Assembly: GCA_015680905.1 (NCBI GenBank)
Contig: CM027378.1
Coordinates: forward strand, 72,383,501-72,447,500
Direction of reading: 5' to 3'
Source: Coptis chinensis
Lineage: Eukaryota; Streptophyta; Magnoliopsida; Ranunculales; Ranunculaceae
DNA: 64,000 nucleotides
Shown in pieces: positions 1 to 39,410 of this stretch (the first letter of the stretch is position 1; each line of letters starts with the position of its first letter). A program made the translations under genes and the position numbers. The notes below the pieces were generated by a model, which was given only the letters and a program-made list of their open reading frames with translations, was not told the DNA's origin and ran no database searches.

Positions 1-2238
1 AGATCTGAAGATCTCAATGAGGGTAAATATGTATTTTCCTCATCATCTTCTCAAAAAAAGAAGAAAAAAACCGATCTAACCAAAAAAAGAGACCGATCTA
101 ACCAAAAAAAAAAACCGAAATTCAAGTTCTCTCTCTCTACGGCTCTCTCGGCTTCTTCTTCTCATCATTTGGCAATTAGGTTTCTTCATTTGGTTTCTTC
201 TTCTCTGACAGGTATCATTTGGCACTTCAACTATAGTGCACTTTTGGTTATGGTGCTTGCCTATTAATAATGCTTTAATTGACACTTGGATTGTCATTAT
301 ACCATAAAAACTTGAATTTTGATTTAATTTAGGTTGCTATGATTATAGTTATGATTAATACCCTCGTTTAAAGACGGCGACAATTTCGGTGAACTCTGTC
401 GTATTCTTCATGCCGTATTCTGTCAGAGTTTTGAACTCTGCCAGAGTTCGGTGAACTCTATCAGAGTTTTGAACTCTGTCAGAGTTCGTTGAAGTAGCAT
501 ATTCGGTGAACTCTGTCAGAGTTTTGAACTCGTCAGATTCGCCGAGTTCAAAACTCATTCGAGTTCGGTGAACTCGTCGATTCTTCATGCCGATTCTCAT
601 ATTCGTTTTGAACTCGCCGAGTTCGTTGAACTCGTCGTATTATACTTCGCCGAGTTCAAAACTCTTTCGAGTTCGTGAACTCGTCGTATTCTTCATGCCG
701 CATTCGTCAAAGTTCGGTGAAGTATCATATTCGATGAACTTTGACTCGCCGAAGTTTTGAACTCGTCGTTCTTCTTCATGCAGATTCGCCGAGTTAGTTG
801 AACTCGCCGAGTTCGATGAACTCTTCGTCGTCTTCTTCATGCATTCTTCTCGTCAGTTTTGAACTCTGCCGAGTTCGGTGAACTATGTCGAGTTTTGAAC
901 TCTTTTAGAGTTCGTGAACTCGTCGTATTCTTCATGTCGTGATTCGTCCGAGTTTTGAACTCGCCGAGTTCGGTGAACTCTATCGAGTTTTGAACTCTTT
1001 CGAGTTTTGAACTCTGTCGAGTTCGGTGAACTCTATCGAGTTTTGAACTCTTTCGAGTTTTGAACTCTGCGAGAAGTTCGTTGAAGTAGCATATTCGGTG
1101 AACTCGCCAAAGTTTTGAACTCGTCAGATTCGGCCGAGTTCAAACTCTTCGAGTTCGTGAACTCGTCAGTATTCTTCATGCCGTGATTCGTCCGAGTTTT
1201 GAACTCGCCGAAAGTTCGATGAACTCTATCGAGTTTTGAACTCTTTCAGAGTTTTGAACTCTGTCGAGTTCGCTGAAGTAGCATATTCGGTAAACTCGCC
1301 GAAGTTCGGTGAACTCTGTCAAAGTTTTGAACTCGTCGTGATTCTCGTCGAAGTTCAAAACTCTTCGAAGTTCGTGAACTCGCCGTCGTATTCTTCATGC
1401 CGTGATTCTCGTCGAAGTTTTGAACTCGGCCGAAGTTCGGTGAAGTATCATATTCGTGAACTTTGACTCGCCGAAGTTTTGAACTCGTCGTATTCTTTTC
1501 ATCAATTCGTCCGAGTTCGCTGAACTCTGTCGAGTTTTGAAATCTTCGAGTTCGTGAACTCGTCGTATTTCTTCATGATGTATTCTCGTCCGAAGTTTTG
1601 AACTCGCCGAAGTTTTGAACTCTTTTAGAGTTCGGTGAACTCGTCGTATTCTTCATGCCGATGAACTCGTCGAGTTTTGAACTCGTCGAAGTTCGTGAAC
1701 TCTATCGAGTTTTGAACTCTTTTCGAGTTTTGAACTCGTCGAAGTTCAGTTCGTTGAGTAGCATATTCGGTGAACTCTGTCGAAGTTTTGAACTCGTCAG
1801 ATTCGCCGAGTTCGTGAACTCGCCGTATTCTTCATGCCGTTCGTCGAGTTTTGAACTCGCCGAGTTCGTGAAACTCTATCGAGTTCGGTTGAAGTAGCAT
1901 ATTCGTGAACTCTTTCGAAGTTTTGAACTCGTCGTATTCTTCATGCCGTGATTTTGAACTCGCCGAGTTCGGTGAACTCGTCGATTCGGTGAACTTTGTC
2001 GAGTTTTGAACTCTGTCAGAGTTCGGTGAACTTACAGAGTTCGGTGAACTAGCATATTCGGTGAACTCGTCAGAGTTTTGAACTCGACAGAGTTCGTGAA
2101 GTAGCATATTTGGTTAACTCTGTCGAGTTTTTGATGTTTAAGTTATTTACACCGCTTATGTACATTGGGATTTTTACCGTTTAAGTTATTTATATTTTTA
2201 ATTTTTCGATTTATAGAAATGGAGACGAGACATCAATC
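1..2238. repeat. Left terminal inverted arm of the giant MULE
   Basis: Bases 1-110 and about 350-2,238 match the right arm in reverse complement. The inner part of the match includes the run leading into the transposase (a stretch around 2,130-2,238 ending AGAAATGGAGAC). Bases 120-350 have no counterpart on the right, where about 690 bases of different sequence occupy the position. The arm contains a poly-A-rich GATCTAACC motif pair and the long palindromic-monomer array. Confidence 0.8.
355..2135. repeat. Subterminal array of short palindromic monomers, left arm
   Basis: About 1.8 kb built from 13-18 bp units such as GAGTTTTGAACTC and GAGTTCGGTGAACTC. Each is an imperfect palindrome (GAGTT...AACTC), separated by short linkers such as CTGTC or TTCTTCATGCCG. 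A higher-order phrase with TTGAAGTAGCATATTCGG recurs every few hundred bases. Open frames through the array are a by-product of the repeat and are not genes. Confidence 0.9.
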
Positions 2239-4516
2239 AATATCGAAGAAGACGTGGTTGGGTCTTCGTCTACTAAAGCCCCTGTTCAAGGCACGCAAAC
2301 ATTAGCTGCTCCTTATATAGGAATGACTTTTACAAGTATTGACGAGGCAAAGACTTATTACAAAGAGTATGGTCAACAAGAGGGATTTGAGACTCGTGTT
2401 CGGACGACTTCTAAGCAACAAAATCAGGTGGATTTGGTTAGTGGTTGTTTACCGGGTTTGCTCACGGAAGGGGTTAAGACTCCTAAGAGATGAAGTCCGA
2501 TCAAGAAATACATCAACTATCCGTGGGTTGCCAAGCTAGAATTCGTATTAAGAAAAGAATGCATGAAGAGATATATGAGGTCAGCGTTGCTCATAATGAC
2601 CATAGTCACGGTCTGGTGACCCCATCGAAGAGAATTTGCATGAAAACTAACAAACATATGCCCGGCAAATGGTGCTTGACCGAGATATTTAGTGATAACA
2701 GGTTTATCCGTTGGGAAAGTGGCATCCGTTTTCCATGGAGAGGAAGTTGGGTTTACACGGAAAGATTGTTGGAACCATTATTATGGTTTGACCGTAAAGA
2801 TGCCTAAAGAAGGTGATGCAACCGCCGCCGCAATAATTATTTTATGCGTAAGAGTGCCGAGGATCCCCTGGTTCTATTACGCCATTGATTTAGATGAAAA
2901 TGGGACTGCGGTGAACTTTTTCCGGGTTCATGGGGGGTCTCGATGCCGATGAAATATTTCGGAGATGTTGTGTCTTTTGATACCACATATCGCACCAATG
3001 CATATTCCATGCCTTTTGCCCCTTTTACCGAGTCAACCATCATTATCGGTCGATTCAGTTTGGTTGTGCATTGTTGCTTGATGAGACGAAGATACATTCA
3101 TATGGCTATTTAAGGCCCGGCTTGCAGCCATGGGTGGTCGCGGCGCCAACCGCAATCATCAATCGACCGGGATAGAGCGATGACAAGAGCCATTGCCAAA
3201 GTGTTTCCTAATACTCGTCATCGCTCTCGTCTTTGGCATATTATGCAGAAATTCCAAGAGAAGATGTCATTTACCAAATTTGAGACATTGGTAACCGAAA
3301 GTTGAAGAACACTTCTTTTTTCGTGATAGGATTGTTGATTTTGAGAGAAGATGGTGTACAATCATTGAGAAGTATGAGTTGTCCAAAATCCTTGGTTGAC
3401 AGAGATATATTCAATGCGGAGAAATGGGTTCCTTGTTATCTCGCTGGCACCTTTTTGTTTGGTATGCACACGACCGGGTCGAAATGAATCGATGAATGCT
3501 CATTATGACCAGTTTGTCAATTCGACGAATACGCTTATGCAGTTTGTACATGGTAATGAGAAGTCTTTGGCTTTGCTTGCTAGGAAAGAAAGAGATTCCG
3601 ACATTACGCGACCGAAAGCATAGTTCACGGATTGTGCCTAACGATGCTTTCATCCTTATGCATGCCGCGAAGGTCTATACGATCTCAATATTCAATAAAT
3701 TTAAAGAGCAACTAGAAAAGGCAAAGATGGAGTACAAAATTGATGGGGAACAAATTGACAGGTATGGAACCGGAAGCTACATGGTGAAATGGAGATACCC
3801 GCTGAAGAATTCAGTTTGGAGAGTGAGTTTCGATAGAGGAACCTTAGAGGGAGATCATAATGCAAGTACTTTCAGTTTATGGGTTTGCTTTGTGGTCATA
3901 TCTTAAAGGTTTTTATGCGCTACGAGATTGAAGAGATTCCAAACCATTTTAGATTGACGCGGTGGATGCAAAAGTCTAACACTTATAGAGCGGAGTTTGA
4001 TACTGGATTTGTGGTCGGGAATGTCTCAAATGAACCTTTGAGAGTGGCTCATTCTATCAAGGTTGCTTCTCAAGTGGCTTACGATCGTCCGCATACTTTT
4101 GAGGGTTATTCATATTTTATTGAAAAGATTGGTGAAATGGCTATTGAAATTTCAAAGTTTAATGAGACTTCCTACAAAGGAGACGCAGAAGTTGCAGAGC
4201 CTCCAGTTGCAGAGCCTTCGATACCTTCGGTTAATACATCACAGGTTTTTTTTATTTGAATGTTTAATTTGATATAAATTTAGTGTTTAATTCGGTGTTT
4301 AATTTGATATAAATATTTATTTTAATTCGGTCTTTATTTCAGCTATTGATTTTGAATCCCAACATTTCTCAAACAAAAGGGAGGGGGAAGAAGAAAGCGG
4401 ATAGATGGAAATCCCCCAAAGAGATAGCCCTAAACAATTCAGGAAGAAAGTGTCACAGATGTGGACAGATTGCTAACCATGACTCGAGAAATTGTCCGGA
4501 GAAAAATAATACGTAA
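2220..4516 (+). pseudogene. Mutator-like transposase (FAR1/MuDR type), frameshifted
   Basis: The reading frames in order spell a FAR1-family N-terminal DNA-binding domain (PYIGMTFTSIDEAKTYY, then QEGFETRVRTTS), a basic HNH-like stretch, and a MULE transposase core with FDTTYRTNAY (about 2,970). These are followed by TDRDRAM-like and LWHIMQKFQEK segments, a SWIM-type remnant (LLCGHILKVFMRYEIEEIPNHF, positions about 3,880-3,950) and, after a short intron ending TTTATTTCAG at about 4,341, a CCHC zinc knuckle CHRCGQIANHDSRNCP at about 4,450-4,497. The frame changes repeatedly near 2,480, 2,690, 2,930, 3,100, 3,300 and 3,880. The first Cys pair of the SWIM finger is not visible. The family catalyses cut-and-paste transposition in the nucleus; this copy cannot encode an intact enzyme as read. 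The exon begins inside the inner edge of the left arm. Confidence 0.85.
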
Positions 4517-5629
4517 TTTGTCGATTGTAAATATAGATTTATTCAAAACTCTTTGATTCTAAATGTTCACTAGTTCTAATGATATTTTTATCTGCGCGTC
4601 ATGGACTTCATTGATGTCTGAACTTGTTAAGAGTGGTTTAGATATGGCAGCCTTGTTAGAGTTTTATCAAGTGTTGTTAAGTTGAACTGTGTCGAGGGTT
4701 GTGTTCCATTGCATCATTATGTCCATTGGATAGTATCTAATGTTGTCTGCTAGCTAGGCTCTAGATAGGAAACATCATAATGATAGACCGGGTGCTTTTT
4801 TGATAACTTCTTTCTCCCTTTTATTTTCAAATTTTAATATTGCTGGTTTAGGTTACATTTGGGGAGTTTAATTAGACCGAAGTTCTAATCTCATTGATAT
4901 TGTAGAAAAGAGAAGTATGGCTCAAGGAGAAATGGAGAATCTCGAGGCAAAGCTTTGCTTTAGGTAAAAATACTGCCTACTCATCCGTTTCTCGCTTCCA
5001 GCCCCCGACTTTGCATCAATCGATCTTCAGTCTTTTCATCATTCTCTCATGGTTATGTTTCTTCTTTATCGCTGAGTTCCACAAGATGCCACAAGATCAC
5101 TGCCACCTTGACTATGCACCATTCAAGAAAGGCCAAAATTGAGTTATTAGCTATAACGGAGAAATTGTCGTGAAAAGAGCGAGAAGAAGCGTATGTTGAA
5201 AGAAGGTGGAGAAGTTGAAGAGAGCTGAAACTTGGAGTGAAAGGCTCAACAAGCCAAAGCTAGGTGCAAAAGGCTATACTTGTTGCTAATTCATTCCGAT
5301 GTGCTTAAATGTTGTAATACGTAACAATAATATTTGGGATTGCATAAAGCATTTTGATGTGCTTATTATAAATGTTACGGTTGTTACAATGCGTGCCCAC
5401 TTGCAATTTTGTTCCGTAAGTTGATATGATGTATTGATGCAGATACTATACCACCAAGATAATGCCAACGCTTGTCAACAACAAATTTACCTCAACTCAT
5501 ATGATCATCAATGAACATCAACACAAACAAACCAAACCGATAAATTGCCAAAACATCAACATCAACGATATGGACTTAGTAACGGCGATATCGTTTGATT
5601 TGAATTTGGATAAAAAAATGGCGTGTTCT
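4517..5629. other. MULE interior spacer, no recognised gene
   Basis: AT-rich sequence downstream of the transposase. A short open stretch at about 5,200-5,275 (KKVEKLKRAETWSERL, +) looks like the 3' end of a captured coding segment, but I do not recognise the family. Nothing else is supported. Confidence 0.4.
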
Positions 5630-8292
5630 GTTTGGACTTTGTCCCAAACGGCATGGCCAAACCGTTGGACTTAGTCCCAAACGGCCACACCGCTTGGCCT
5701 TAGTACCAAACGGTGTGCCATGCCGCCGTTTGGGACTAAGTCCAAACGGTTTGGCCATGCCGTTTGGGACAAAGTCCAAACACACACTCTATTTTTTGCA
5801 AGTTCAAAGTCCAAACATGGCGAACCGCTTGGCCTTAGTCTCAAACGGCATGGCCACACCGCTTGGAACTAAGGCCAAACGGTTCCGCCATGCCATTTGG
5901 ACTTTGAACTTGCAAAAAAATGGTGTGTTTTTTGGACTTTTCCCAAACGGCATTTTGGACTTAGTCCCCAACGGCATGGCCACACCGTTTGGACCTAAGG
6001 CCAAACGCATGGCCATGCGTTTGGGACTAAGTCCAAACGGTTTGGCCATGCCGCTTGGGGACAAAGTCCAAACAGACACACCATTTTTTGCAAGTTCAAA
6101 GTCCAAACGGCATGGCCACACCGTTTGGAACTAAGTCCAAAACGGTTCGCCATGCCGTTTGGGACAAAGTCCAAAACGGACCGCCATTTTTTTTTTGCAG
6201 TTCAAAGTCCAAACGGCATGGCCGGATCGTTTGGATTTTGTCCCAAACGGCATGGCCGCACCGTTTGGCCTTAAAGTTCCAAACGGTGTGGCCATGCCGC
6301 TTGGACTTTGAACTTGCAAAAAATGGCGTTTTTTGAACTTTGTCCCCAAACGGCATGGCTGCCGTTTTTGGCCTTAGTTCCAAACGGTGTGGCCGTTGGC
6401 TACTAAGGCCAAACGGTGCGCCATGCCGTTTGGACTTTGAACTTGCAAAAAATGGCGTTCAATGTTGTTTGGACTTTGTCCCAACGGCATGGCCGCGTTT
6501 GGACTTTGTCCCAAACGGCATGGCCACACCGTTTGGAACTAAGGCCAAACGGTGTGGCCATGCCGTTTGGGACAAAATCCAAACGGTCTGGCCATGCCGT
6601 TTGGACTTTGAACTTGCAAAAAAAAATGGCGTGTCTGTTTGGACTTTGTCCCAAACGGCATGGCCAAACCGTTTGGCCTTAGTTCCAAACGGTGTGGCCA
6701 TGCCGTTTGACTTTGAACTTTGCAAAAAATGGTGTGTCCGTTTGGACTTTGTCCCAAAACGCATGGCCAAACCGTTTGGACTTAGTCCCAAACGGCATGG
6801 CCACACCGCTTTGGCCTTAGTACCAAACGGTGTGGCCATGCCGCTTGGGACTAAGTCCAAACGGTGGCCATGCCGTTTGGGGACAAAGTCCAAACAGACA
6901 CACCATTTTTTGCAAGTTCAAAGTCCAAATGGTATGGCCGCATTTGGCCTTTAGTTCCAAGCGGTGTGGTGTGGCCATGCCGTTTGGGGACAAAATCCAA
7001 ACGGGTCCAAAAGACTTTGAACTTGCAAAAAAATGCCGTGCGTTTGGACTTTGTCCCCGGCAAAATGGCCACACCGTTTGGAACTAAGGCCAAACGGTTC
7101 CGCCATTTGGACTTGAACTTGCAAAAAATGGTGTTGTGCGTGGACTTTGTCCCCAACGGTGGCCACGTTTTGGACTTAGTCCCATGGCGGCATGGCCACC
7201 CGTTTGGTACTTGTACTAAACGGGCATGGCCATGCCGCTTGGGACTAAGTCCAAACGGTTTGGCCATGCCGCTTGGGGACAAAGTCCAAACAGACACACC
7301 ATTTTTTTTTTGTGTTCAAAGTTCAAACAAAGTAAACGGCCACACCGCTTGGAACTAAGGCCAAACGTTCGGCCATGCCGCTTTGGGACAAAGTCCAAAC
7401 AGACAAACCAAACGGCATGCTTGCACCGCTTGATTTTGTCCCAAACGGCATGGCCACACCGCTTGGCCTTAGTTCCAAGCGGTGTGGCCATGCCGTTTGG
7501 GACAAAGTCCAAACGGTTCGCCATGCCGCTTGGGGACAAAGTCCAAACGCATTACACGCATTTTTTTTTGCAAGTTCAAAGTCCAAACGGCATGGTTGAA
7601 CCGCTTTGGCCTTAGTACAAACGGCGCCACACCGCTTGGAACTAAGGCCAAACGGTTCGCCATGCCGCTTGGGACAAAGTCCAAACAACACGCCATTTTT
7701 TTTTTTTTCAAAGTCCAAACGGCATGGCCAAACCGTTTGGATTTTGTCCCAAACGGCATGGCCACACCGCTTGGCCTTAGTGTCAAACGGTGTGGCCATG
7801 CCGCTTTGGGACAAAGTCCAAACGGTTCCGCCATGCCGCTTGGGACAAAGTCCAAACAGACACGCCATTTTTTGCAAGTTCAAAGTCCAAACGGCATGGC
7901 GACACCGTTTGGCCTTTGTCTCAAACGGCATGGCCACACCGTTTTGGTACTTGAAGGCCAAACGGTGCCGCCATGCCGTTTGACTTTGAACTTGCAAAAA
8001 AATGTCGAAATCTGTTTGATTTTGTCCCAAACGGCATGGCCGTCCAAAACGGCATGGCCACACCGCTTTGGAACTAAGGCCAAACGGTGTGGCCATGCCG
8101 TTTTGGACAAAGTCCAAACGGTCTGGCCATGCCGTTTGGGACAAAGTCCAAACAGACACGCCATTTTTGACGCAAGTTCAAAGTCCAAACAGACACGCCA
8201 TGCCGTTTGGGACAAAGTCTGAACAGACACGCCATTTTTTTTGCAAGTTCAAATCCAAACGATATGGCCACACCGTTTGGTGTGACCACACC
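5630..8292. repeat. 2.65 kb array of alternating inverted repeats
   Basis: Dozens of copies of a phrase reading CCGTTTGGACTTTGTCCC, AAACGGCATGGCCA and GAACTTGCAAAAAATGG alternate with their own reverse complements (GGGACAAAGTCCAAACGG, TGGCCATGCCGTTTGG, CCATTTTTTGCAAGTTC) every ~40-100 bases. The array is therefore a mixture of direct and inverted copies and should fold into many hairpins on either strand. Copies differ by point changes and small indels. Its G+C is well above its surroundings. Because the monomer lacks stops in several frames, open frames appear on both strands; none has a non-repeat domain, so I call no gene. Confidence 0.95.
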
Positions 8293-9231
8293 GTTCAAGA
8301 GGCAAAAAAATAGATCTTTTGTGTTTTGGCAAAAACATTGCGTACTGCATTAGATTTTTGTGTTTTGGTAAATAACATTGGGATTTTTGTGTTCTGCATT
8401 AGAGATACTAATAGAGATAACATTGGGACATTAGAGATAACATTGGGACAATGTTCTGCATTAGATTATTAATAGAGATACTTCGATGTGACAAATTAAA
8501 ATGCCAAATTGTCCAGAGCACAAAGAAGAGCCATTGAATGGGTATAAACCGAGATCTAAGCAATGCACATACGCCAAGCAGCATTCGGTAAGTAGTATAA
8601 CCAATTACTCCACTAAACAAGACATCCTATTAAAATCAATGCCTGCTAATAGCAGAAACATAACCAAAGGCAATGTGACATGAAATACATGAAACCCTAG
8701 GATCTTAGGTGAACATGAAAAGAATGACAAGTCCAAAGCAAGATCACTATCATTTCATATTTCAACAATGTGAAATACATTGTCCAATTACATTGTCCAA
8801 TTATTCAACATAAAGCTATACATTGCCATGTGAAATACATTGTCCAATTATATCAACATAAAGCTAAGTTGCTACATATCAACAACTTGCACTTACAAAA
8901 GAGTCCTAACATAACATTTTTTACTACAAAGAGATTTCCAATCTAACTTTCCTCAACTTTATCTCCTTCCCACAAAACAAAAAAATTGAATAAACAGATC
9001 ACCAAACAAAGTTAAATCAAACTTTAAGGTATGACAAAAAAACTAACCTCTCCACTTGCTTCCTCATGTTCACCATCTTCCGCCACCACCATTTCCCCTA
9101 ATTACCCCCAATAAAAAAAACATGAATCAAGATAAATAGTACCACATATGTCAAATCCAACACCAAATCTAGAAACCTCATTGACTGAAAACTCTTGAAC
9201 TTAAGTCATGATCAATCAAAAGAACAAACAA

Positions 9232-9432
9232 AGACAAATGCCAATAAACACTCCCGCATCATCTCAACTAACACAAACCTGAAAAGTAAAGCAAAACCCG
9301 CATCATCTCAAATGCCAATACACACTCCCGCGATCATCTCAACTAACACAAACCTGAAAAGTAAAGCAAAACCAAAGATCATCTCAAATGCCAATAAACA
9401 CTCCCGCATCATCTCAACTAACACAAACAAAC
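9232..9432. repeat. ~65-70 bp tandem repeat, about three copies
   Basis: The phrase CTCAAATGCCAATAAACACT followed by CCCGCATCATCTCAACTAAC and an ACCTGAAAAGTAAAGC tail occurs about three times. A small open frame crosses it but its peptide is just the repeat. Confidence 0.8.
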
Positions 9433-9495
9433 CATTTCCATTTCCAACACTCATCCCAACACAAGATAAAAGGAGGTAAACTAACCAAACTAACC

Positions 9496-9518
9496 ACTAA
9501 ACCCTAAACCCTAAACTA
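9496..9518. repeat. Short interstitial telomere-type repeat (telo-box)
   Basis: CTAAACCCTAAACCCTAAAC shows three consecutive plant telomere units (CCCTAAA). Such boxes occur near plant promoters as well as in telomeres; here it lies just past the 3' end of the PMD pseudogene. Function is not inferable. Confidence 0.7.
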
Positions 9519-9540
9519 ACCAAACTCAACATACCTAAAT

Positions 9541-11290
9541 CCTATGCTCCTTCACGATATCGTCCGCCAATGAACTTGCACCGGGTCAAATTGTATGCCT
9601 CCATGAACTCGCTTACGCGGCATCCTCCTCGAATCGCAGCCCCACCCAATTGCGTGCCTTGATTGAGCAAGCGAAAAATTTCATCGATTTACGGGGTGTC
9701 ACAAAAATTAAAACACAAAACTACATTAGTATATACATTTACATTTATAAAATACCAAAACAAAACAAACAAAACAAAATTAACGCTGTAAGATATTAAC
9801 TCACCGATTATGATATGGAAGACTCGTAGGGAGTAGTGACTAAGATGATCGGGGTTTATCATTCAATATGACTATTGTTTTCGCATTCAACTCATGTATC
9901 TACTAACACACTCCCATGGATAAGACGGAATGGGTCCGCTTGTTCAAGTTGAATCAAGTGATTCTCGCCAATTACTCCAAAGAGGAAGACGCAATATTAA
10001 ATTTCACATCATACCAGCGTCCGAAGTAGTTCGCCGAGGTCTTTGGTTTTGGGGATCCGAGGGTACAAACCGCATATGACCCAAACCGACGACAACCCCC
10101 GCAAACATTGTATCGCTTTCGACATTATCAAGAAAGCATATAAATCCCTCGAAAAATGCTATTTCATCCACCGCCGTAGCTCGGACTTCAACATAGGGAT
10201 ACCATTCAACCACAAATAGCATATGATCGAGGAAATTAATCATTAATCACATACTAATAATATTAATTAATAAATAAAACTATTTACATACAAAAATGCT
10301 TACATCGGTACAAGTCATATTATCAATGGTGGCTCGGTATACTTCAATGCAGCTGTTTGTGCTAGCATAAAAAGACCGAAAGTAATCGAAAGTACCTATT
10401 AGCATCGACATGCTCAAATGATAGTCCCTATTTGGGTATGGCCCAACACTGGAAGTACTCATAAATCCATGCCTACATTAATATAGACACCGAAGTTAAT
10501 ATTGTAATAGATAGATAAAATTGACATTGAAAAGAAAAACAAAAAAAACTAATACCGTAGGAGAGTGAAATAGCCCGAAACACCCTTCACCTTTGGCACT
10601 TGTGGCAGTCCAAGACCCCGCAAGTAAGTAAGCCAAGAAGGTCGCACCCCACGCCAGAGTCTCCGATCTCGCAAATTTCGAAGCGCCTCAGATAACAAAC
10701 GGAACTGCGGTTCCACGGTGTCGGTGAAGGCGGTACATCCAAAGAAAAATAACAGATAAAGCTCTCACAAAGAACTGCACCTCTTTTTGGGTTGACGCCT
10801 TCTTCAACAACCCCATTTTCATCACGTAAATCTTCATCTCTTACCTTCCCAAAGAAACTCGCTTCATCAAGAAATCCATCCTAACTTTGAAAGTGAACTT
10901 ATTGGATTTCATCTCCGTGATCTATCTTATCCATGGGTATGCCAAGATTTTTGTGGAGAAGTCTTTTTGTTCTGTTCCAAGGTCAAATCGTCCCCACCAC
11001 CGCTTTTGCCTCGATCGAACTCCTAAGAGTTGGGAAACATCGTCCAACGTGATTGTCATCTCGCCCCCACGGCATATGAAACGGTTGGTCTCTCGATGCC
11101 ACCTCTCCACAAACGCAGACCAACACAGATCCCGATGCCCAGATACACCTAAGACCAGAGCACATAAGCCGGGTCCTTTGAAGCTCCACGTGAAAAGTAG
11201 AACAAATTAACACTCTCCTCGATATCCCATTGTACCAACTTGTTGAGGTGCCTATGGCACTTCAACACCCCTCGCCCGCCTAAAACAACA
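9541..11290 (-). pseudogene. Plant mobile domain (PMD, MAIN/PP7-long-form-like) gene, decayed
   Basis: Read on the minus strand, the segments in order are RVLKCHRHLNKLVQWDI (about 11,260-11,220), ERWHRETNRF...GEMTITLDDVSQLLG (about 11,107-11,020; the hallmark of PF10536-type plant mobile domains), AWGATFLAYLL and KGVSGYFTLLR (about 10,650-10,560), AWIYEYFQCWAIP (about 10,480), RATIDNMTCTDV then WYPYVEVRATA (about 10,340-10,190), and a C-terminal tail QGTQLGGAAIRGG (about 9,640). Several frames are used and stops intervene, so it is degenerate, with probable introns. Upstream at 11,512-11,620 the minus strand encodes an acidic Glu/Asp run that could be a 5' exon. PMDs occur in host silencing factors (MAIN, MAIL1) and are widespread inside plant transposons. 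Here the gene lies within the MULE, opposite to the transposase. Confidence 0.75.
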
Positions 11291-12585
11291 AAAACTTAGT
11301 ATTAATGTATGCACAAGTTTCAGAATACAAAATTTAAATACTAATAGACACTATATGATAATATTACCTGCCCCTCCCCCAAACATCGCGAGCCACGCAC
11401 CGCATAGTCATACAATAGATGTGACACACAAGGGGCCACCTCCATAAACACCTCTCTTGAACTCCAAGTCATTGTTAGACTTTCTCACAATATTCACCGG
11501 AGGTACAGTACATGGACTTCCTCGTCATCCTCGTCATCCTCCTCCTCCTCCTCCGTCCTCGGCCTCCTCTTCCTCCTCGTCCTCCTCCTCTCGATCATCA
11601 ACACCCTCTTCTTCACTATCAAGATGACTTAGAACTACACTCTTCCCACGATCCATATTTACGCCATGGTCATCTACATCTAAATCTAAATCTACATCTA
11701 CATCTACATCTACATCACATCATCATCATCTCGTCCCTTTTCTTCTTTTTTGATTTCCTAACTCTACACCACTTACAACATTACCGGGATCATCCGCTTC
11801 CGATCCCCTACTTAACCGATGCCAAGTGGTTGTTCTCCTTCCTCTCTTTTTCTCAGCTCCTCATCGCGACCGAACTACTACTCCCCCACCTAACAACTTC
11901 TTAGCACCCGTGGAAAACACTTTTTGTGCATTCTTTCACATTCAGATTCTTTGTTCGAGGCATTGCTACAAAATAAATAGGAGTTAAAAATAAGACATTC
12001 AACTAATTCAAATTGTTGCAATACCAACGTGAAAAAACAAAGAACAAAATAAGGCGGTGTGCATGCCAATCTATATCTAAGGTGTGCATGTATCTAGGCA
12101 AACTATACTCCTCTATTAAATCCCCCCTCCACACACTAACAAAAAAAACCCAATCTAATTGATAAATAGACACTCAAAGGTCCAAAGCTGTAATGAGCGC
12201 GTGAACCTTAACATCAAGGGCAAAGACATTAGACATCTAATGAATGAAAAAAGTAACCTACTCAAAATTGCAAAAATCTTGCTCATGTGTGCAAATAAGA
12301 TCCCAGTAAATCCAACTCACAATAATCATTACAAATTACTCATCATGAATTAAAAAAGAAAACAAAAAAACCCAAAAATCCAATTTCTCAAAGTAAAACA
12401 TTTGAGAAAAACACCTGAAAAGTCAAAAGTCAAAAATAAAACGAAAAGCCTTTTTCAAAGAACACTTAAATCTCAAAAATTAGAACATAAAATTATATCA
12501 ATTGGTTCCAAATTCAGATAAATCGTAAATCTAATAGAAAAGAAATCCCATTTCATAAAATTAAAAAAAATTTCCCGGAACCAAC
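11291..12585. other. MULE interior spacer with low-complexity tracts
   Basis: Contains CTC/TCC-rich (11,520-11,600) and ACATCTACATCT-type (11,680-11,720) simple repeats, then AT-rich spacer. The acidic run on the minus strand may belong to the PMD gene. No other coding evidence is seen. Confidence 0.45.
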
Positions 12586-12890
12586 CTTTGGAAATCCATT
12601 CAACGACCTCCATTCTCAAACCCAAATCTAAATCCCCACCTTTCAACCTTGCCAAATAATCATGTCTAGGCATATGTTCAGATTCTTTCTCAACCATTAA
12701 CCCAACACACTCATCACTATGCAAAGAAAACAAAAAAGGCTAGTATTTTGATTAAAGTTTTGTGAATGCCAAATATTTTCTTCATAGTTTATTGCTCCAA
12801 AGAACTCCATTATCAGAATCATCAAAACACATAAGACTGTTGTTGTCTTCTGCACAGAACAAAAGACTTGATGATGTGCAAATCAAAACT
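12586..12890 (-). pseudogene. Captured cyclin D exon-1 fragment
   Basis: On the minus strand SSSLLFCAEDNNSLMCFDD (about 12,885-12,830) matches the acidic N-terminus of CYCD2/CYCD4-type cyclins. After two stops and a spacer come SDECVGLMVEKESEHMPRHD and YLARLKGGDLDLGLRMEVVE (about 12,722-12,600), the start of the cyclin box. Homology stops after WISK, exactly at a GT (AAAG|GTTGG at about 12,586), which is where CYCD exon 1 normally ends, so genomic DNA including intron sequence was captured. The LxCxE-type Rb-binding motif is changed (LLFCAED). It is fused downstream of the PPR fragment in the same orientation. In-frame stops make it non-functional as a cyclin. Confidence 0.75.
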
Positions 12891-12907
12891 ACAACACGGG
12901 ATGTTTT

Positions 12908-13048
12908 AAGCTTTCCACATGCTTTGAATAGTGATGGATATATGAAATTTGTTGGGATAGTGTTGGTTTTGTGGAATTGAGTGTAGAGTGATAGTGCTTC
13001 TTTGTATAGTCCATTTGAGAATAGTTTTTTTATGTCTCCTCCTTTCAT
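12908..13048 (-). pseudogene. Captured PPR protein N-terminal fragment
   Basis: A minus-strand frame starting at ATG 13,048 reads KKLFSNGLYKEALSLYTQFH followed by IPTNFIYPSLFKACGKL. This is the typical first motif of plant pentatricopeptide repeat proteins (a short 'G.Y.EAL.LY..' helix and a 'P..F.YP.LFKAC..L' helix). Only about 47 residues remain of a family usually 400-900 residues long. The homology stops at an AAGCTT at about 12,908, where cyclin-D-like sequence begins in the same frame. PPR proteins bind organellar RNA; this fragment cannot do so. It is best read as a host gene fragment captured by the MULE. Confidence 0.75.
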
Positions 13049-13785
13049 CCACTTTTTTTTTTTTTTTTTTTTTTAATGTTTAAGTTTGCAAAAAATGGAT
13101 TTAAACCAATTGAAGTAGTTGCTCCACTTTGTTGACTTTTATTTGCCGTTTTTTCAAACCAACCTACTTAAACTGGCTCAGTTTATTTCTCTACCATTGG
13201 ACATCAAATCAAATTGGTTTTCCTCACCCTCGTACACTATTATTTGAGGATATGAGGATGAAAACTTTAAAATCATTGGACGGGAGTTGTTGTACATTAT
13301 TGAAAGTTCTTCATGTTGGTGAATAATTAATTGTCTTGTATCCTTCGTGTTTTACTTGCAATCAAACAAGTAGTCTTCTTTAGGTTGTAAAATACATATG
13401 GAACTAAAAGAATTGAATCAAAGGCTATTAACATATCCCAAAAAATTATACTAGTTTAGGTTTTATCTTACTAATGGTTCAACCTAAGTTTACTAAAGGA
13501 TAACTACAACTATAATTATTAAAACTCTAAATTTGGTTTGAATCACACATATATATATATAGCTCCTCTTGGCCATCTTATTCAATTCTATCATTTTAAT
13601 TTGACGACATATTCTCCTAGCATGTTTGTTTGTTGGTTCTCTATCAATTACCTGATTATGTTGATCTATTTTCTTACTTACTGAAAGATAAGTGTTTTGT
13701 TTAAGCAGCAAATTAGTACTTATTGGAATAAATGTACGCCATACATGATATAGTTCAAAGTACTGTGAGGTATTATGAAATTTGT
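13049..13785. other. MULE interior spacer
   Basis: Begins with a ~22-base T tract (13,051-13,073), then AT-rich sequence with a short ATATATAT run near 13,547. No coding or RNA gene evidence. Confidence 0.5.
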
Positions 13786-13789
13786 TGAA

Positions 13790-14710
13790 ATCTAAACATT
13801 TAGATTTGTTAGTGTAGCTTGCATCTCCTTCTAGAATAGATGCAGTAAGGAAATGAAGCTACAGACTACACAGACTATAGGGAAGATAGAGAGATTCTCC
13901 TTGCTTGCATACCCTTTCTTACTTCTTTTCCTTTCTTACGCTCTTCGATAGTTGCAATCTTGGATTACAGGAAGAACCAGATGGCTACATCTAATAGGTT
14001 AGAATCTATCCTAACTTCCTATAAACCTACCTGTAGGAGGAAGATCTTGCTCTCTCCTAGGGTGAGGAAGCAGGGAAGAAGTCTGTCAACAAGAAGAGAT
14101 TCGATCCTTCATGCGCCTAGCTACGAGGACCTGCGCCCAACCAATTCTACAAGGACCTGCGCCCTATCTCAATCAGTACTTATCTCTCCAAGGAGGAGCC
14201 TACTAGGCCCTTCACTCCTGAATGGGTATAGAGATGTCTTCAACAAAGCATGTCCCCGAAAGACGACTTTCTCACCCTACCCGCCCCCTAAATTAGATAT
14301 AAGTTCGGTACGGGTTGGGGGTAAAGCTAAGCCAAACTACCACCTACCCCTCGCTTGAGGGATGTTGTGAGAGGTAGTACCCCTTCTTGGCCGAGAGCGT
14401 ACATAAATGATGTGGTCCCCGGATTACGAATATTAGTAACAAGAGATTGGTCTTTTGTAGTGTGATGAGTAACTATAGAGATCGAGGTTGAGATCAAATC
14501 ACATCAAAGGCTTGGCCACCGAAAGTAAGACAGCTCTTTCCCTCTTTTGTTTTCATCCCCGCATGTTGGTATGTCCGCAAGACCCAGCAAAGCGAATATA
14601 ATCCTCATCAAGTTCCCTCGGGACTCTCTCTTTTTGTAGTTCATAACTTTAAGGCAACGACAAACCGCTTTGGTTAAGCACCAGCCGACCGCGGACTTAG
14701 AATCAGACCT
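13790..14710. other. Compositionally distinct block, possible organelle-derived insert
   Basis: G+C is visibly higher than on either side, and the wording (short purine-rich and CCTACCCGCCCCC tracts, scattered gene-less text) resembles plant mitochondrial intergenic DNA. An open frame at 13,960-14,358 (+) encodes a basic, Ser/Arg-rich peptide with no family I recognise. I offer this as a possible nuclear insertion of mitochondrial DNA, unproven. Confidence 0.3.
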
Positions 14711-14799
14711 TGGTTACGTTTTTGGAATTTTTGTACTTAAATCATACAAAAATGGGGTTTATTCAACAATTTTGAGTATATATGCCATCGTTTCCATAT

Positions 14800-15050
14800 G
14801 CAAGCTCATGACCTACGAAGTCTCGAGCTCGAAAGCGGTCGAAGCTTCACTCGAGCTCGCTTTGTAAAACGAAGTCGAGTCGAAATGAAGTCGAAGCTCG
14901 AGCTAATTATAATTCAAATCGAAGTCGAAGTTTGAGCACAAAGTGGAGTTCGACATTGAGTTTGACCTCGCTCGAACTTCGACTCGAAAACTCACGAGCG
15001 AATCTGAGCATGCATGCCAAGATTCTCGCTCGACTCGATGACCACCCCTA
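14800..15050. mobile_element. Truncated hAT-type element fragment
   Basis: Rich in TCGAGCTCGAAG-type repeats and ends CTCGATGACCACCCCTA at 15,034-15,050. This is nearly the same right tip as the complete hAT element at 45,821-46,391 (CTCGATGACCAGCCCTA). No matching left tip is visible, so only the right part remains. Confidence 0.6.
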
Positions 15051-15107
15051 ATCAAAGGGGAACAACTGTCGATACTCGATCTTAAGTCTCTAACTCAAAA
15101 ACTAAAT

Positions 15108-15247
15108 TGAATCAAACATAACATTATATATATAAAAAAAAAAAAAAATAGAAAGATAGAACAGTTACCTGAAACAGAGCTATATATTTATTTTGAATCA
15201 AGCAAGCAGTACTCCAGTCGATATGGCCTCAAATAAAAATCTAGTGA
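15108..15247. repeat. Direct repeat copy 1 (~140 bp)
   Basis: The phrase TTGAATCAAACATAACATTA through CAAATAAAAATCTAGTGATA recurs at 17,038-17,178 with a few substitutions and indels. The two copies flank 1.8 kb of unrelated sequence. They do not start TG or end CA, so I do not call them LTRs. Confidence 0.8.
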
Positions 15248-17037
15248 TACACATACACACACAAAAGAGAAAAAGGAAACTGAATAACTCTTCTATTAAT
15301 TAGTGTATTTAGCTACACTTTGGAAAACTCAATTTTCTGCACTTTGTTGCTAAATAGTGGGATATTATGTATCAAGATTGTATTGTGTGGATAAGATTTT
15401 TGGGGTGTTTGCTTAGTTGGATCTGCTATTGGATTTCTTTGTTCTCTATGTGTGAGTTACCTAAATCTACTTTGCTTAACAAACGTTTTCTTTTACTAAT
15501 AATGTACTAACATAAAAGAATGAGTGTTTACATTTGGTGTGTGAAAAGGATGTTGTTCTATGATATCCTTCCTTCCGCCATGAATGCCACCTATAATCAC
15601 GGTCGGCGCTTTGCTAGAATGCTACCCTACATTATTGAAAATATCTCAAATAAATAATATATGTGATGTTGAATTAGTGCTCAAGTGGTGTCTTGTCATC
15701 TTTTCACCTTTGATCGATCTGTATGAACTCTATGTTGAATTTGGTATCGTTTCTACATTTCTCTTGATCACATCTTTGTTGGAAGATTTAGACTTTGGAT
15801 TCGGTTAGCTTTTTGAGAAATATTTCAGAATAAGGTTTGTGACTTTGTACAACTTAAAGATTTAATTTAGTTGACTGAGATCGGTACCATAAACTAGTAA
15901 TCTGATGAGAATTTGAAGAGTAGTAACTTCCCGATAGTTACCTTTGAGAGTTTATCCGACGTTGAAGTGTTCGATTTACTATGTATTGGTGCCGATCGGT
16001 TAACTGAAACACAATAAGCATCTAAGTATATTGGTTGTATATAAAGCACAGACGCTTTGGCTTGATTCAGGACAATGAATTGGTCATTAGTTCACATAAG
16101 GGTTTGTTGTACTCGTAGTACCTAGCTTTATTCACCGTTCCTGAGAAGGAAGTACGCCCAAGTAGCAAGATTGACTCCTCGCGATAAGCCAAAGTGATGA
16201 CGAAACATTCAATCGAAAGTCCAAGATATAGCCCAAATAAGTCTAATTTGGATTGGCAGTCCAGTTTGACAACATACGACAAAATGATCATAACTTTCTC
16301 TAAAAACCTTTGTTTTGCGAACCATAAATTTGGTTGGAAACTAGACTTCATGAGCTTTCTAGTGGTGTGTGTTATGTATGGAGAAACGTCCTGTTCAGAT
16401 TCAAGTTTGACTTTGAACTTAGAAGAAAATCAGGAATAGTTTTAATGCTTGTCTCTTCAAGATCCTAAGTTTGTATTTAGCTATAAATTCTCTAAGACTT
16501 GTAATGGAAGTAGAGCAGTATTTGAATGAAGATATAGGACTTTTATTGAGAAGAAGTGGTTCTTCTTGGTGAAACAACTCTTATCTCTTTGGTGGATTCC
16601 ATAGAGTGGTGAGTTCTAGTAACACAACTCTTATCCCTTTGGTGGATTTCCATAGGGCAAATGAGTTCTTTGTTTTCTTTTAGTTTGTGCTTGTATTTAC
16701 TTCCTATTACACCATTCTAAATGGTGTCACAAAGAGCTTGTCTAACTTCACTTCTCTCGATTATCAATTGATTTATCCTTCCCGAGTTTGGTGAATGCAA
16801 AACTTCGATATCATTTGATGTGGATCTTACAGAACGTATCTATATATATCCGCTATACTTGCGAAAATATAAATTTTGTTATACTTTCGAAATCTTGTGA
16901 AACTTGTGTTAGATGGATGACCACTAGCTAGGTTCAAATTTTATTTTGGTTTTCATGCATTCTTAACTTCATTTTAAGAATGAGTGATATCAACGAGGGA
17001 AAGTACAAAAAAATGGGTGTCTAGAATTCAAAAGAAT
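15248..17037. other. Segment between the two ~140 bp direct repeats
   Basis: AT-rich with no recognisable protein. A short tandem phrase (CAACTCTTATC[T/C]CTTTGGTGGATT) occurs twice at about 16,577-16,650. CCATTCTAAATGGTGTCACA at about 16,712-16,731 loosely recalls an LTR end plus primer site, but no partner LTR is seen. Confidence 0.4.
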
Positions 17038-17178
17038 TGAATCAAACATAACATTATATATATATAAAAAAAAGATAGAAAGATAGAACAGCTTACACAA
17101 ACAGAGCTATATATTTATTTTGAATCAAGCAAAGCGATTACTCCGGTCGATATGGCCTCAAATAAAAATCTAGTGATA
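17038..17178. repeat. Direct repeat copy 2 (~140 bp)
   Basis: Second copy of the repeat at 15,108-15,247, in the same orientation. It directly precedes the inner edge of the right MULE arm. Confidence 0.8.
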
Positions 17179-17374
17179 TCAACAGAGAGACAATAAGTTC
17201 ATAACTTCATTGTTTGATTTAATGATTTATTTATTTTGAACTTGGATAAACATAACATTGATGTCTATGTCTCCATTTCTATAAATCGAAAAAAATAAAA
17301 AATATAAATAACTTAAACAAATCAAAAATCCCAATGTACATAAACAAAGTAAATAACTTAAACATCGAAACTCG

Positions 17375-18275
17375 ACAGAGAGTTAACTAAATATGCTACT
17401 TCACGAACTCGCGCCGAGTTCAAAACTCGACAAATTCAAAACTCCGGACAATTCACGAACTCGACGAATTTAGAACTCTGACAGAATTCACCGAACTCTG
17501 ACAGAGTTCAAAATTCTGACAAAATTCACCGAACTCTGACAGAGTTCAAAATTCTGACAAAATTCACCGAACTCGACAGTTTCAAAAACTCGACAATTCA
17601 AAACTCGAATTCACCGAACTCGACGAATTTAGAACTCTCGACAGAGTTCAAAACTCGACAATTCAATCGAACTCGACAGAGTTCAAAACTCTGACAGAGT
17701 TCAAAACTCTGACAGAATTCAAAACTCTGACAGAGTTCACCGAACTCTGACAGAATTTAGAACTCTGACAGAGTTCAAAACTCTGACAGAATTCAAAACT
17801 CTGACAGAGTTCACCGAACTCTGACAGAATTTAGAACTCTGACAGAGTTCAAAACTCGACAAATTCAAAACTCGACAAATTCACCGAACTCGATTGAATT
17901 TAGAACTCTCGACTGCATTCACCGAACTTTGATTGAATTTAGAACTCTGACAGAGTTCAAAACTCTGACGAAATTCACCGAACTCCTCGACAGAGTTCAA
18001 AACTCTGACAGAATTCAAAACTCGACGAATTTAAAACTCTGACGAGTTCACCGAACTCTGACAGAATTTAGAACTCTGACAGAATTCAAAACTCTGACAG
18101 AGTTCACCGAACTCTGACAGAATTTAGAACTCTGACAGAGTTCAAAACTCTGACAAAATTCAAAACTCTGACGGAATTCACCGAACTCGACGAATTTAAA
18201 CTCGACGAATTCACCGAACTCGGCCGAATTTCAAACTCGACAGACTAACCTAACTCCCGACAGAGTTCATCAAAT
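17375..18275. repeat. Subterminal array of short palindromic monomers, right arm
   Basis: The same monomer family as 355-2,135 in inverted orientation: units such as GAGTTCAAAACTC and AATTCACCGAACTC separated by TGACA. Copies here are more uniform than on the left, and many GAGTTC have become GAATTC, creating runs of EcoRI sites. Length is about half that of the left array. Confidence 0.9.
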
Positions 18276-18960
18276 ATGCTAACACCTAATTAAACACATT
18301 TAGCTCCTTGAACTGGACTTGCACCAACACCTAATTAAACACATTTAGCTCCTTGAACTGCTAAGCATAAGAGTAGTAGATTCTTCTGGCAGCTTAAAAC
18401 GACTCTAAAGCTAATACAAATAGGGGTGGTGTCGAAGTATTCAAGGATATTGATAGGTTAGTTGTTGCTTCTAGTCATATTGCATTTGGATCTTCCAAAT
18501 AATACAATAAGCAAAAAAATGCTCGAATCCAATATTTCTATCGGTTATTAGTTGTTGCTTCTAGTCATATGACATAGATGCAAGTTAAATCACATCCACT
18601 TCATAAGCAAATTTACATTCTTAAAACAAAAAGAATATTACTTGGTTTAATTTTATTACTTAATAAGGTTCGGTTTAATATAAGACAAACCGATATATGA
18701 AATGCTATCAGAAAAAGGAAGTATCAGTACCGCTTCTATCATTTTGATTTCAACGCTGAAGCATCTTGAGCCACCAAATATACACGAACAAAAAAAATAA
18801 CCTTTTTAGAACCTAACAACATAAACGGAAAACATTTCTTAAATTAGATGTGGTGAATTAGACCAGTAAGTTCACATACCCAGTGAAGGCATGCAGCAAA
18901 AGAAGAGTCGCACGAGATGGAAATCAAATCTGACAAAGCAATATATGGTTGTTTTTGTAG
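18276..18960. other. Unique insert in the right MULE arm
   Basis: No counterpart exists in the left arm. It opens with a ~49-bp direct duplication (AACACCTAATTAAACACATT...) at about 18,281-18,361, and a TTAGTTGTTGCTTCTAGTCA phrase occurs twice (about 18,459 and 18,547). No coding evidence. Confidence 0.5.
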
Positions 18961-19455
18961 ATCCCTCAGATTAGTCGATCCCTCTCTTTTTTTGGTTAGA
19001 TCGGTCTCTTTTTTTGGTTAGATCGGTTTTTTTTTTCTTTTTTTGAGAAGATGATGAAGAGAGAACTTGAATTTCGGTTTTTTTTTTTTTGTTAGATCGG
19101 TCTCTTTTTTTGGTTAGATCGGTTTTTTTTTCTTTTTTGAGAAGATGATGAAGAGAGAACTTGAATTTCGGTTTTTTTTTTTTTTTTTTTGTTAGATCGG
19201 TCTCTTTTTTTGGTTAGATCGGTTTTTTTTTTTCTTTTTTTGAGAAGATGATGAAGAGAGAACTTGAATTTCGGTTTTTTTTTTTTTTTTTGGTTAGATC
19301 GGTCTCTTTTTTTGGTTAGATCGGTTTTTTTTTTTTTTTTGAGAAGATGATGAAGAGAGAACTTGAATTTCGGTTTTTTTTTTGGTTAGATCGGTCTCTT
19401 TTTTTGGTTAGATCGGTTTTTTTTTTCTTTTTTTGAGAAGATGATGAGGAAAATA
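18960..19455. repeat. ~100-bp tandem array near the right MULE tip
   Basis: About four and a half copies of a unit containing GGTTAGATCGGTCTCTTTTT, a T tract, GAGAAGATGATGAAGAGAGA and ACTTGAATTTCGG. The left arm carries the unit once (bases 45-140, inverted), so the array expanded on one arm only. Confidence 0.9.
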
Positions 19456-19557
19456 CATATTTACCCTCATTGAGATCTTCAGATCTAGAGGTCGGATCCG
19501 ACGGCTCAAGAGGAGAGTGAGGTAAGGGTGGCACTCTAAGAGTGGCACCCTAGACAA

Positions 19558-19560
<3 letters not shown>

Positions 19561-19648
<88 letters not shown>

Positions 19649-39360: not shown

Positions 39361-39369
39361 TATAAATAC
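39361..39369 (+). promoter_or_regulatory. TATA box of NPL4
   Basis: TATAAATAC lies 50 bases before the ATG at 39,411, leaving room for a very short 5' leader. The start context ACCATGG is favourable. Confidence 0.65.
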
Positions 39370-39410
39370 ATCTCTCAATTTTCTTTACCACAAAAAACAC
39401 TAAACCAACC

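Follow-up and report, generated by a model that had tools for sequence, protein, structure and literature searches.

A stretch of 64,000 nucleotides of the Coptis chinensis genome (contig CM027378.1, positions 72,383,501 to 72,447,500; hereafter the window) opens inside a Mutator-like transposon of 19,636 bp (C2:72383426-72403061), which carries a FAR1-type transposase and, on the opposite strand, a plant mobile domain (PMD) gene. We consider it highly probable that this copy represents a family of large class II Mutator-like elements that have a FAR1-type (Jittery-like) transposase, insert into TA microsatellites and, in their long members, share a two-gene core. The limits are drawn where they are because intact tips of the family read CGGTTTGTCTAGGGTGCC. 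The left tip lies 75 bp to the left of the window start, in sequence fetched from beyond it, where an earlier reading of the letters alone (the sequence-only reading) had pointed; the right tip falls at window position 19561, which moves the end given by that reading, 19,551, outward by 10 bp. The transposase, PMD and array sequence that it had placed between the two arms are all present (Table 1). Copies with the same tips, for which it had advised a search, do exist elsewhere in the genome: the tip pattern gave 553 matches, against 0 and 1 for controls, and in eight other copies with these tips the interior is also present, whole or in part.

Table 1. Features of the window copy and its right flank, in window coordinates
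Feature	Positions	Strand	Basis or remark
Left terminal inverted repeat (199 bp), its innermost 134 bp	1..134	+	Outer 65 bp and 10-bp tip outside window (C2:72383426-72383500)
Left array: 17-bp dyads GAACTCTGtCAGAGTTC and variants; 81 half-sites GAACTC/GAGTTC	391..2095	+	Repeat analysis
Transposase leader and first codons, also inverted in right arm	2096..2237	+	Arm alignment
FAR1-type MULE transposase gene, frameshifted in window copy	2219..4516	+	Pfam pieces
Central array, CCAAACGG...CCGTTTGG dyads, about 2.6 kb in window copy	5583..8280	.	Repeat analysis
PMD gene, broken in window copy	9535..12160	-	Limits approximate, from stretch common to other copies
Possible PPR-gene fragment, limits approximate	12551..13087	-	Consensus piece, E 0.059, below cut-off
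Second, inverted copy of the transposase leader with its start codon, at the inner margin of the right arm	17257..17405	-	Arm alignment
Right array, dyad family of left array, 39 half-sites	17406..18268	-	Repeat analysis
4.7 tandem copies of 94-bp unit matching inner part of terminal repeat	18987..19447	-	Repeat analysis
Right terminal inverted repeat	19354..19551	-	Arm alignment
Outermost right tip AGACAAACCG, common to intact family tips	19552..19561	-	Tip comparison
(AT)35 target microsatellite	19562..19631	.	Right flank

Judged by its domains, the transposase is of the FAR1 (Jittery-like) type. The Pfam MULE domain (PF10551) is matched over its full model length in copy E5 (7.4e-34), consensus pieces of copies match FAR1 (1.6e-7) and SWIM (3.4e-6), and a CCHC-like zinc knuckle was read by eye at the end of the gene. 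A single transposase piece of the window copy passes the Pfam cut-off (MULE, 2.5e-6, model positions 70-99), its other MULE pieces and those for FAR1 (0.0036 and 0.025) and SWIM (0.0012) all falling below. These MULE matches, together with a 9-bp duplication in one relative, support the assignment to the Mutator-like elements. The PMD domain (PF10536) reaches 1.6e-42 in E5 and 7.9e-11 in the window copy, where the matching piece spans 10925-11206. Ten interior pieces were scanned with Pfam; two were without a match, and the rest gave either the matches given in this account or weak ones that fell short of the cut-off. Searches of solved structures with transposase and PMD pieces returned no match at 0.01. 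The transposase region is covered by seven of the eight other copies and the PMD region by six or seven; E1-E4 and E8 have PMD-homologous DNA, E7 has part of it (the middle is missing) and E6 has none. The longest stop-free stretch in the transposase of any copy is 230 aa, and the nine copies read (the window copy and eight others) look neutral and inactive, a decay that assembly errors may exaggerate.

Perhaps the arrays and the PMD gene are inert passengers, produced by expansion of minisatellites and by a gene capture long ago, and carried along because the master element had them, a reading that we hold to be possible if doubtful. It fits the substitutions among copies, which lack a consistent third-position excess across 15 segments with stop-free frames (53/51/55 and 63/64/67 by codon position in the two longest transposase segments), and the wide variation in array length, the central array measuring 0.45-1.4 kb in seven other copies and being missing from one. 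It also fits the 8.0 kb copy E6, which retains both arm arrays although it has lost the central array, the PMD region and the greater part of the transposase. The arrangement of the genes argues the other way: among the matches listed, all 15 linked cases (transposases for which a PMD is listed no more than 12 kb away) have the PMD on the opposite strand, 5.5-7.5 kb downstream, against 0.58 expected. In the same direction point the half-sites, at least 10 of which fall in the first 1,500 bp on the inward side of 26 of the 30 tips sampled, with at most two on the outward side, and several PMD relatives at 63-65% identity whose matched stretch is free of stops. The "captured genes" of the sequence-only reading are a poor description of the PMD, which recurs in the family at a fixed orientation and distance. 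Among the transposases, PMDs and tips listed, a PMD stands within 12 kb of 15 of the 150 transposases, and a tip is known no more than 20 kb away for 10 of these transposases and for 11 of the 150 PMDs, so many of these relatives may sit in other elements.

The arms, described at first as inverted repeats of about 2.2 kb, turned out to be so only in part: the two ends are indeed inverted copies, with inverted homology well past the first 110 bases, but the continuous terminal repeat measures 199 bp (98.5% identity) plus the 10-bp tip; within the window, positions 1-134 align with 19486-19354, read as reverse complement, at 98.5%. Inside it comes a non-homologous spacer, followed by arrays of 17-bp dyads, inverted and diverged between the arms, and by a duplicated transposase leader with its start codon. 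The left spacer (element positions 200-455) and the right stretch from terminal repeat to array, which reaches to about 1,280 from the right tip, have no matches in common longer than 35 bp, and a continuous 2.2 kb terminal repeat is thereby ruled out. The inner homology (left 1628-2237 against right 17891-17257, 73% over 668 columns) lies mostly in tandem arrays of unequal length, 1,704 versus 863 bp, with most matches at 66-73%; outside the terminal repeat the best inverted match scores 278 bits against 62.6 bits for the direct one. Dyads of the element include the GAACTCTGTCAGAGTTC and CCAAACGG types.

Arms built in this way could be those of a Foldback-type Mutator such as Tm1 of root-knot nematodes, where the long tandem-repeat arms themselves serve as composite terminal repeats. 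In Tm1, as far as its published account goes, the arms likewise have a short repeat at the tip, a tandem array that varies in length and a conserved motif further in; they consist largely of short tandem repeats in variable number, and the element makes 9-bp duplications. Tm1 differs in size (about 1-2.3 kb), in its Phantom-like transposase and in its animal host (PMC3169594). Because the left and right spacers that part terminal repeat from array are non-homologous, we think this structure unlikely, although it departs from our main reading in structure and not in transposase superfamily, so the two overlap.

Within a sample of 89 tips, most of them chosen for intact outer bases, 46 form 23 convergent pairs (5.9-29.1 kb, median 14.6 kb) and 43 have no partner within 50 kb; none of the 89 belongs to a divergent pair closer than 45 kb. 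That two different small elements bracket unrelated DNA by chance is therefore extremely improbable even with arms unequal in length and spacer sequence, for the convergent pairs and the interior common to the eight further copies contradict it, rule out a chance pairing of the arms and make the two arms parts of one element, as had been supposed. The proposal that the window copy may be one of the largest of its kind is not supported, given tip pairs of 20.3, 25.2, 25.6 and 29.1 kb; the 25.2 kb pair holds a retrotransposon integrase. A private insertion as the source of the window copy's size was rejected, every stretch of at least 60 bp reported being covered by at least two other copies.

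Of 82 tips, 72 have a TA run of 8 or more no farther than 3 nt away, compared with 44 of 43,988 positions (0.1%) in the rest of the window. These tips, counted by coordinate, comprise 30 tip-search loci, 39 of 40 further pieces and 13 from the nine copies, with tip L097, a damaged tip taken from copy E2, left out. TA-microsatellite targeting had no place in the sequence-only reading. The 9-11 bp duplication that it proposed to look for is not demonstrable at the window copy, as the two flanks, each a (TA)n run, agree at 6, 8, 10 or 12 bp, not at 9 or 11. An exact 9-bp flank match occurs in 16 of 33 pairs; in 15 of these it falls within a pure TA repeat, which admits other odd lengths as well. 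A non-repetitive exact duplication, TATTATATA, flanks C7:68088804-68114020 and fits only at 9 bp, reading the left tip as TGG for CGG, and at C2:25124557 the flanks match at 8 of 9 positions. Of the 17 pairs whose phase could be classified, 13 are odd (p = 0.025); only even lengths fit in 5 of the 33, the window copy included, and 12 of the 33 have no exact flank match of 6-12 bp.

For the large FAR1-type element that we favor, several steps can be envisioned. The transposase would bind the 199-bp terminal repeats and excise the element, which would then insert in TA microsatellites with a 9-bp duplication, cut-and-paste transposition being presumed from the superfamily. Long members carry a recurring core of transposase and convergent, opposite-strand PMD gene, with a dyad array between them and further dyad arrays inside each terminal repeat. 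The arrays are putative binding sites for an element-encoded dimeric protein, which might keep the element expressed or aid synapsis, and PMD and arrays together may act against silencing. VANDAL/VANC is such an anti-silencing system, as its report describes it (PMC5735166); the accessory gene of the Coptis family differs in being a PMD gene, and its anti-silencing role is putative. It is a far bolder and distinctly unlikely proposal that a FAR1-lineage MULE independently combined a PMD accessory gene with dyad arrays of its own and so gained an anti-silencing system parallel to VANDAL/VANC, letting an unusually large transposon stay expressed and spread as 6-29 kb copies, with TA microsatellites as safe landing sites. 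For PMD proteins of transposons, one published account offers anti-silencing only as speculation (PMC5418596), and the arrays provide a concrete, testable target for the question of what these proteins do.

TA targeting, PMD genes and tandem-repeat arms are each already known in MULEs. The closest parallel for the targets is MuTAnT of Medicago truncatula, a Mutator-like family with a Jittery-like transposase, whose account describes many copies (218), TA-microsatellite insertion and 9-bp duplications; unlike the Coptis family, its putative autonomous element AutoMuTAnT has 4,873 bp and one ORF, its tip mask GGGGTTTGCTAGAACA is different, and FAR1, PMD and "mobile domain" are absent from the main text on it (PMC4486113). 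SaTar elements and AgS-MULEs (guayule, rice and others) are reported to sit in microsatellites too, sometimes several lined up in one, but the non-autonomous ones described are 380-1,900 bp, the defective autonomous one is 5.3 kb with 400-bp terminal repeats, and the duplications in guayule are 10 bp (PMC5907723). CitMule of clementine, in its description, shares the FAR1, SWIM and MULE domains, the relation to Jittery and the 9-bp duplications, and differs in its size of about 6.9 kb, in having no long terminal repeats and in the one 5-exon transcript described (PMC4334395). A transposase with a PMD gene, often antisense as here, is reported for VANDAL, MDR, MUDRAVI2, MUDR and others (PMC6446971, PMC5418596). 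The table of the MULE survey gives PMD for groups 42 and 45-50 and none for group 36, the plant sub-group of Jittery with FAR1, unlike the Coptis family with its FAR1 and antisense PMD; nor does that table hold the three traits combined in a FAR1-type element (PMC6446971). A literature search on giant MULEs found no paper matching all the traits sought. Microsatellite targeting, antisense PMD and tandem-repeat arms, reported apart in the papers cited here, meet in one large Mutator-like family. A last likeness concerns the tandem units at 18987-19447, which recall the MULEs with multiple long terminal repeats, where tandem terminal-repeat copies also stand at one end; those described repeat the whole terminal repeat, whereas the window element repeats only its inner part (PMC3310237).

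The element at the left of the window is a member of a real, large and distinct family. When its 24-base tip was sought genome-wide (935.6 Mb in 116 contigs; the first 100 places were listed) with at most three mismatches, it occurred 553 times, 273 forward and 280 reverse, against 0 and 1 for the controls, so that the further same-tip copies for which the sequence-only reading had suggested a search do exist. The 60-base tip has 89 places genome-wide, all listed; 46 of these form 23 convergent pairs spanning 5.9-29.1 kb (median 14.6 kb), divergent neighbours closer than 50 kb occur only once (45.9 kb apart), and one pair on the same strand is no more than 374 bp apart. Because the transposase region is represented in seven of the eight other copies read (E1-E8), and that of the plant mobile domain (PMD) gene in six or seven, the interior is not private to the window copy; the 8.0-kb copy E6 has lost its inner part, and the 25.2-kb copy E7 is missing the central part of the PMD region and contains a retrotransposon integrase (rve, 1.5e-16).

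Coordinates of the element, related loci and neighbouring features
Feature	Position	Remark
Window	C2:72383501-72447500	placed by genome search
Element	C2:72383426-72403061	19,636 bp; right end at window 19561
Inverted ends	window 1-134 and reverse complement of 19486-19354	98.5% match
Segment used for indels	window 2219-4516	with homologous parts of seven other copies
Copy L022-L024	C7:68088804-68114020	25.2 kb; open integrase frame inside (rve 1.5e-16, H2C2 5.5e-13)
Tip group	C5:71427126-71463663	four tips forming two 6.7 kb pairs, plus one unpaired, in 37 kb, among tips listed
NPL4-family frame	window 39366-40523 (+)	385 aa, 7.1e-11
Copia-like pieces	window 47526-49866 (-)	integrase rve 2.1e-13, reverse transcriptase RVT_2 4.3e-16

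Both ends, read in the window and in a fetched left flank, carry the tip CGGTTTGTCTAGGGTGCCACTCTTA, and the element therefore has the limits tabulated; its left end, located by whole-genome placement and that flank, falls just outside the window. The Mutator-like element (MULE) with inverted ends proposed from the sequence alone is thus real, but its span of 1..19551 is superseded. The terminal repeat is 199 bp long (98.5%) plus the 10-bp tip, and a 94-bp unit that matches its inner part stands in 4.7 tandem copies at the right end. Inward of it lie spacers that match between left and right over at most 35 bp, and then inverted arm arrays of GAACTCTGtCAGAGTTC-like dyads (short near-palindromic units; 1,704 bp and 863 bp), inside which a ~110-bp part of the transposase leader, start codon included, is duplicated in inverted orientation. 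Despite the nearly palindromic unit, the arms beyond the terminal repeat score 278 bits inverted versus 62.6 bits direct. The ~2.2 kb inverted arms first described are upheld in so far as inverted homology extends ~2.3 kb into the element, yet this homology is discontinuous and, in the arrays, mostly 66-73% identical; these diverged arrays and the non-matching spacers rule out a continuous 2.2 kb terminal repeat. A central array of CCAAACGG dyads (~2.6 kb) separates the transposase and PMD genes.

In consensus and copy pieces, one strand encodes FAR1 (1.6e-7), MULE (PF10551, 7.4e-34) and SWIM (3.4e-6) domains and the other PMD (PF10536, 1.6e-42), by Pfam. The window copy's genes are broken by frameshifts: one MULE piece (2.5e-6) and one PMD piece (7.9e-11) exceed Pfam cut-offs, and a second MULE piece (3.9e-4), FAR1 (0.0036 and 0.025) and SWIM (0.0012) fall below them. 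A PPR-like fragment (E 0.059) is only suggestive. Across the nine copies' transposases the longest stop-free stretch is 230 aa, and substitutions among copies show no consistent third-position excess. Small indels number 319 in eight copies, and 44% of deletions and 49% of insertions lie near CG against a 16% background; AA and TT are not enriched, and GG, GC and GT are modestly so. This CG enrichment suggests that some frameshifts are assembly (consensus) errors at methylated sites, so the copies have probably, though not demonstrably, decayed.

Alternating TA runs of 8 or more adjoin 72 of 82 tips, compared with 44 of 43,988 positions elsewhere in the window. Target duplications were compared in the 33 pairs with both flanks available, scoring exact matches of 6-12 bp. 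Sixteen match exactly at 9 bp, 15 of them inside TA repeats where other odd lengths also fit; the remaining copy, C7:68088804-68114020 (TATTATATA), matches at 9 bp only, assuming a C-to-T substitution in its left tip base. Twelve pairs have no exact 6-12 bp match (one, C2:25124557, agrees at 8/9 outside TA repeats), and five, the window copy included, fit even lengths alone. Seventeen pairs are flanked by pure TA at each end and retain both tip bases; their phase is odd in 13 and even in 4 (one-sided p = 0.025). The duplication of 9-11 bp that had been anticipated is accordingly indicated for the family, where the evidence points to 9 bp, and is not established for the window copy.

Relatives abound in this genome (4,119 transposase and 3,231 PMD first-look candidates, several with open frames). 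Among the 150 of each that were listed, 15 transposase-PMD pairs lie within 12 kb where 0.58 are expected, and every one of them has its PMD downstream of the transposase and on the other strand, at a distance of 5.5-7.5 kb between the listed starts. Open frames of 516-633 aa, uninterrupted by stops across the match, occur in some listed transposase relatives; one, C9:21670498, a relative by transposase match irrespective of membership by tips, combines a 522 aa open frame with a linked PMD. An antisense PMD is described as common in MuDR-type groups (PMC6446971), whereas the table in that paper gives no PMD for the plant FAR1-bearing Jittery sub-group; the family here has both FAR1 and PMD. 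TA targeting is already reported for the Jittery-like MULE MuTAnT (PMC4486113) and for other MULEs, the SaTar elements (PMC5907723), and tandem-repeat arms for Tm1 (PMC3169594). The element is of a known kind, a variant in its combination of traits; no description of a giant MULE uniting TA targeting, PMD and tandem-repeat arms was found in the open-access library searched, and one may exist in print.

Mechanistically, the transposase would recognise the terminal repeats and insert the element into TA microsatellites, the targets observed, presumably by cut-and-paste as in the superfamily. The dyad arrays suggest a protein that binds as a dimer, which may be the transposase or the PMD product. 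An anti-silencing role can be proposed, unproven, by analogy with VANC, which has tandem-repeat targets (PMC5735166), and with the suggestion, itself speculative, that PMDs carried by MULEs act against silencing (PMC5418596).

The tip group on C5 is possibly a local duplication or clustering. At tip loci L020 and L035 (C1:50629963 flank) and L016 (C2:71774784), inspection by eye shows a tip-like end (CCAAACCG) across the shared TA microsatellite, and a further family tip ~470 bp past copy E3; this resembles the modular SaTar arrays of guayule. Elsewhere in the window lie Copia-like pieces and an NPL4-family frame which, unlike the transposon genes, is uninterrupted over its length.
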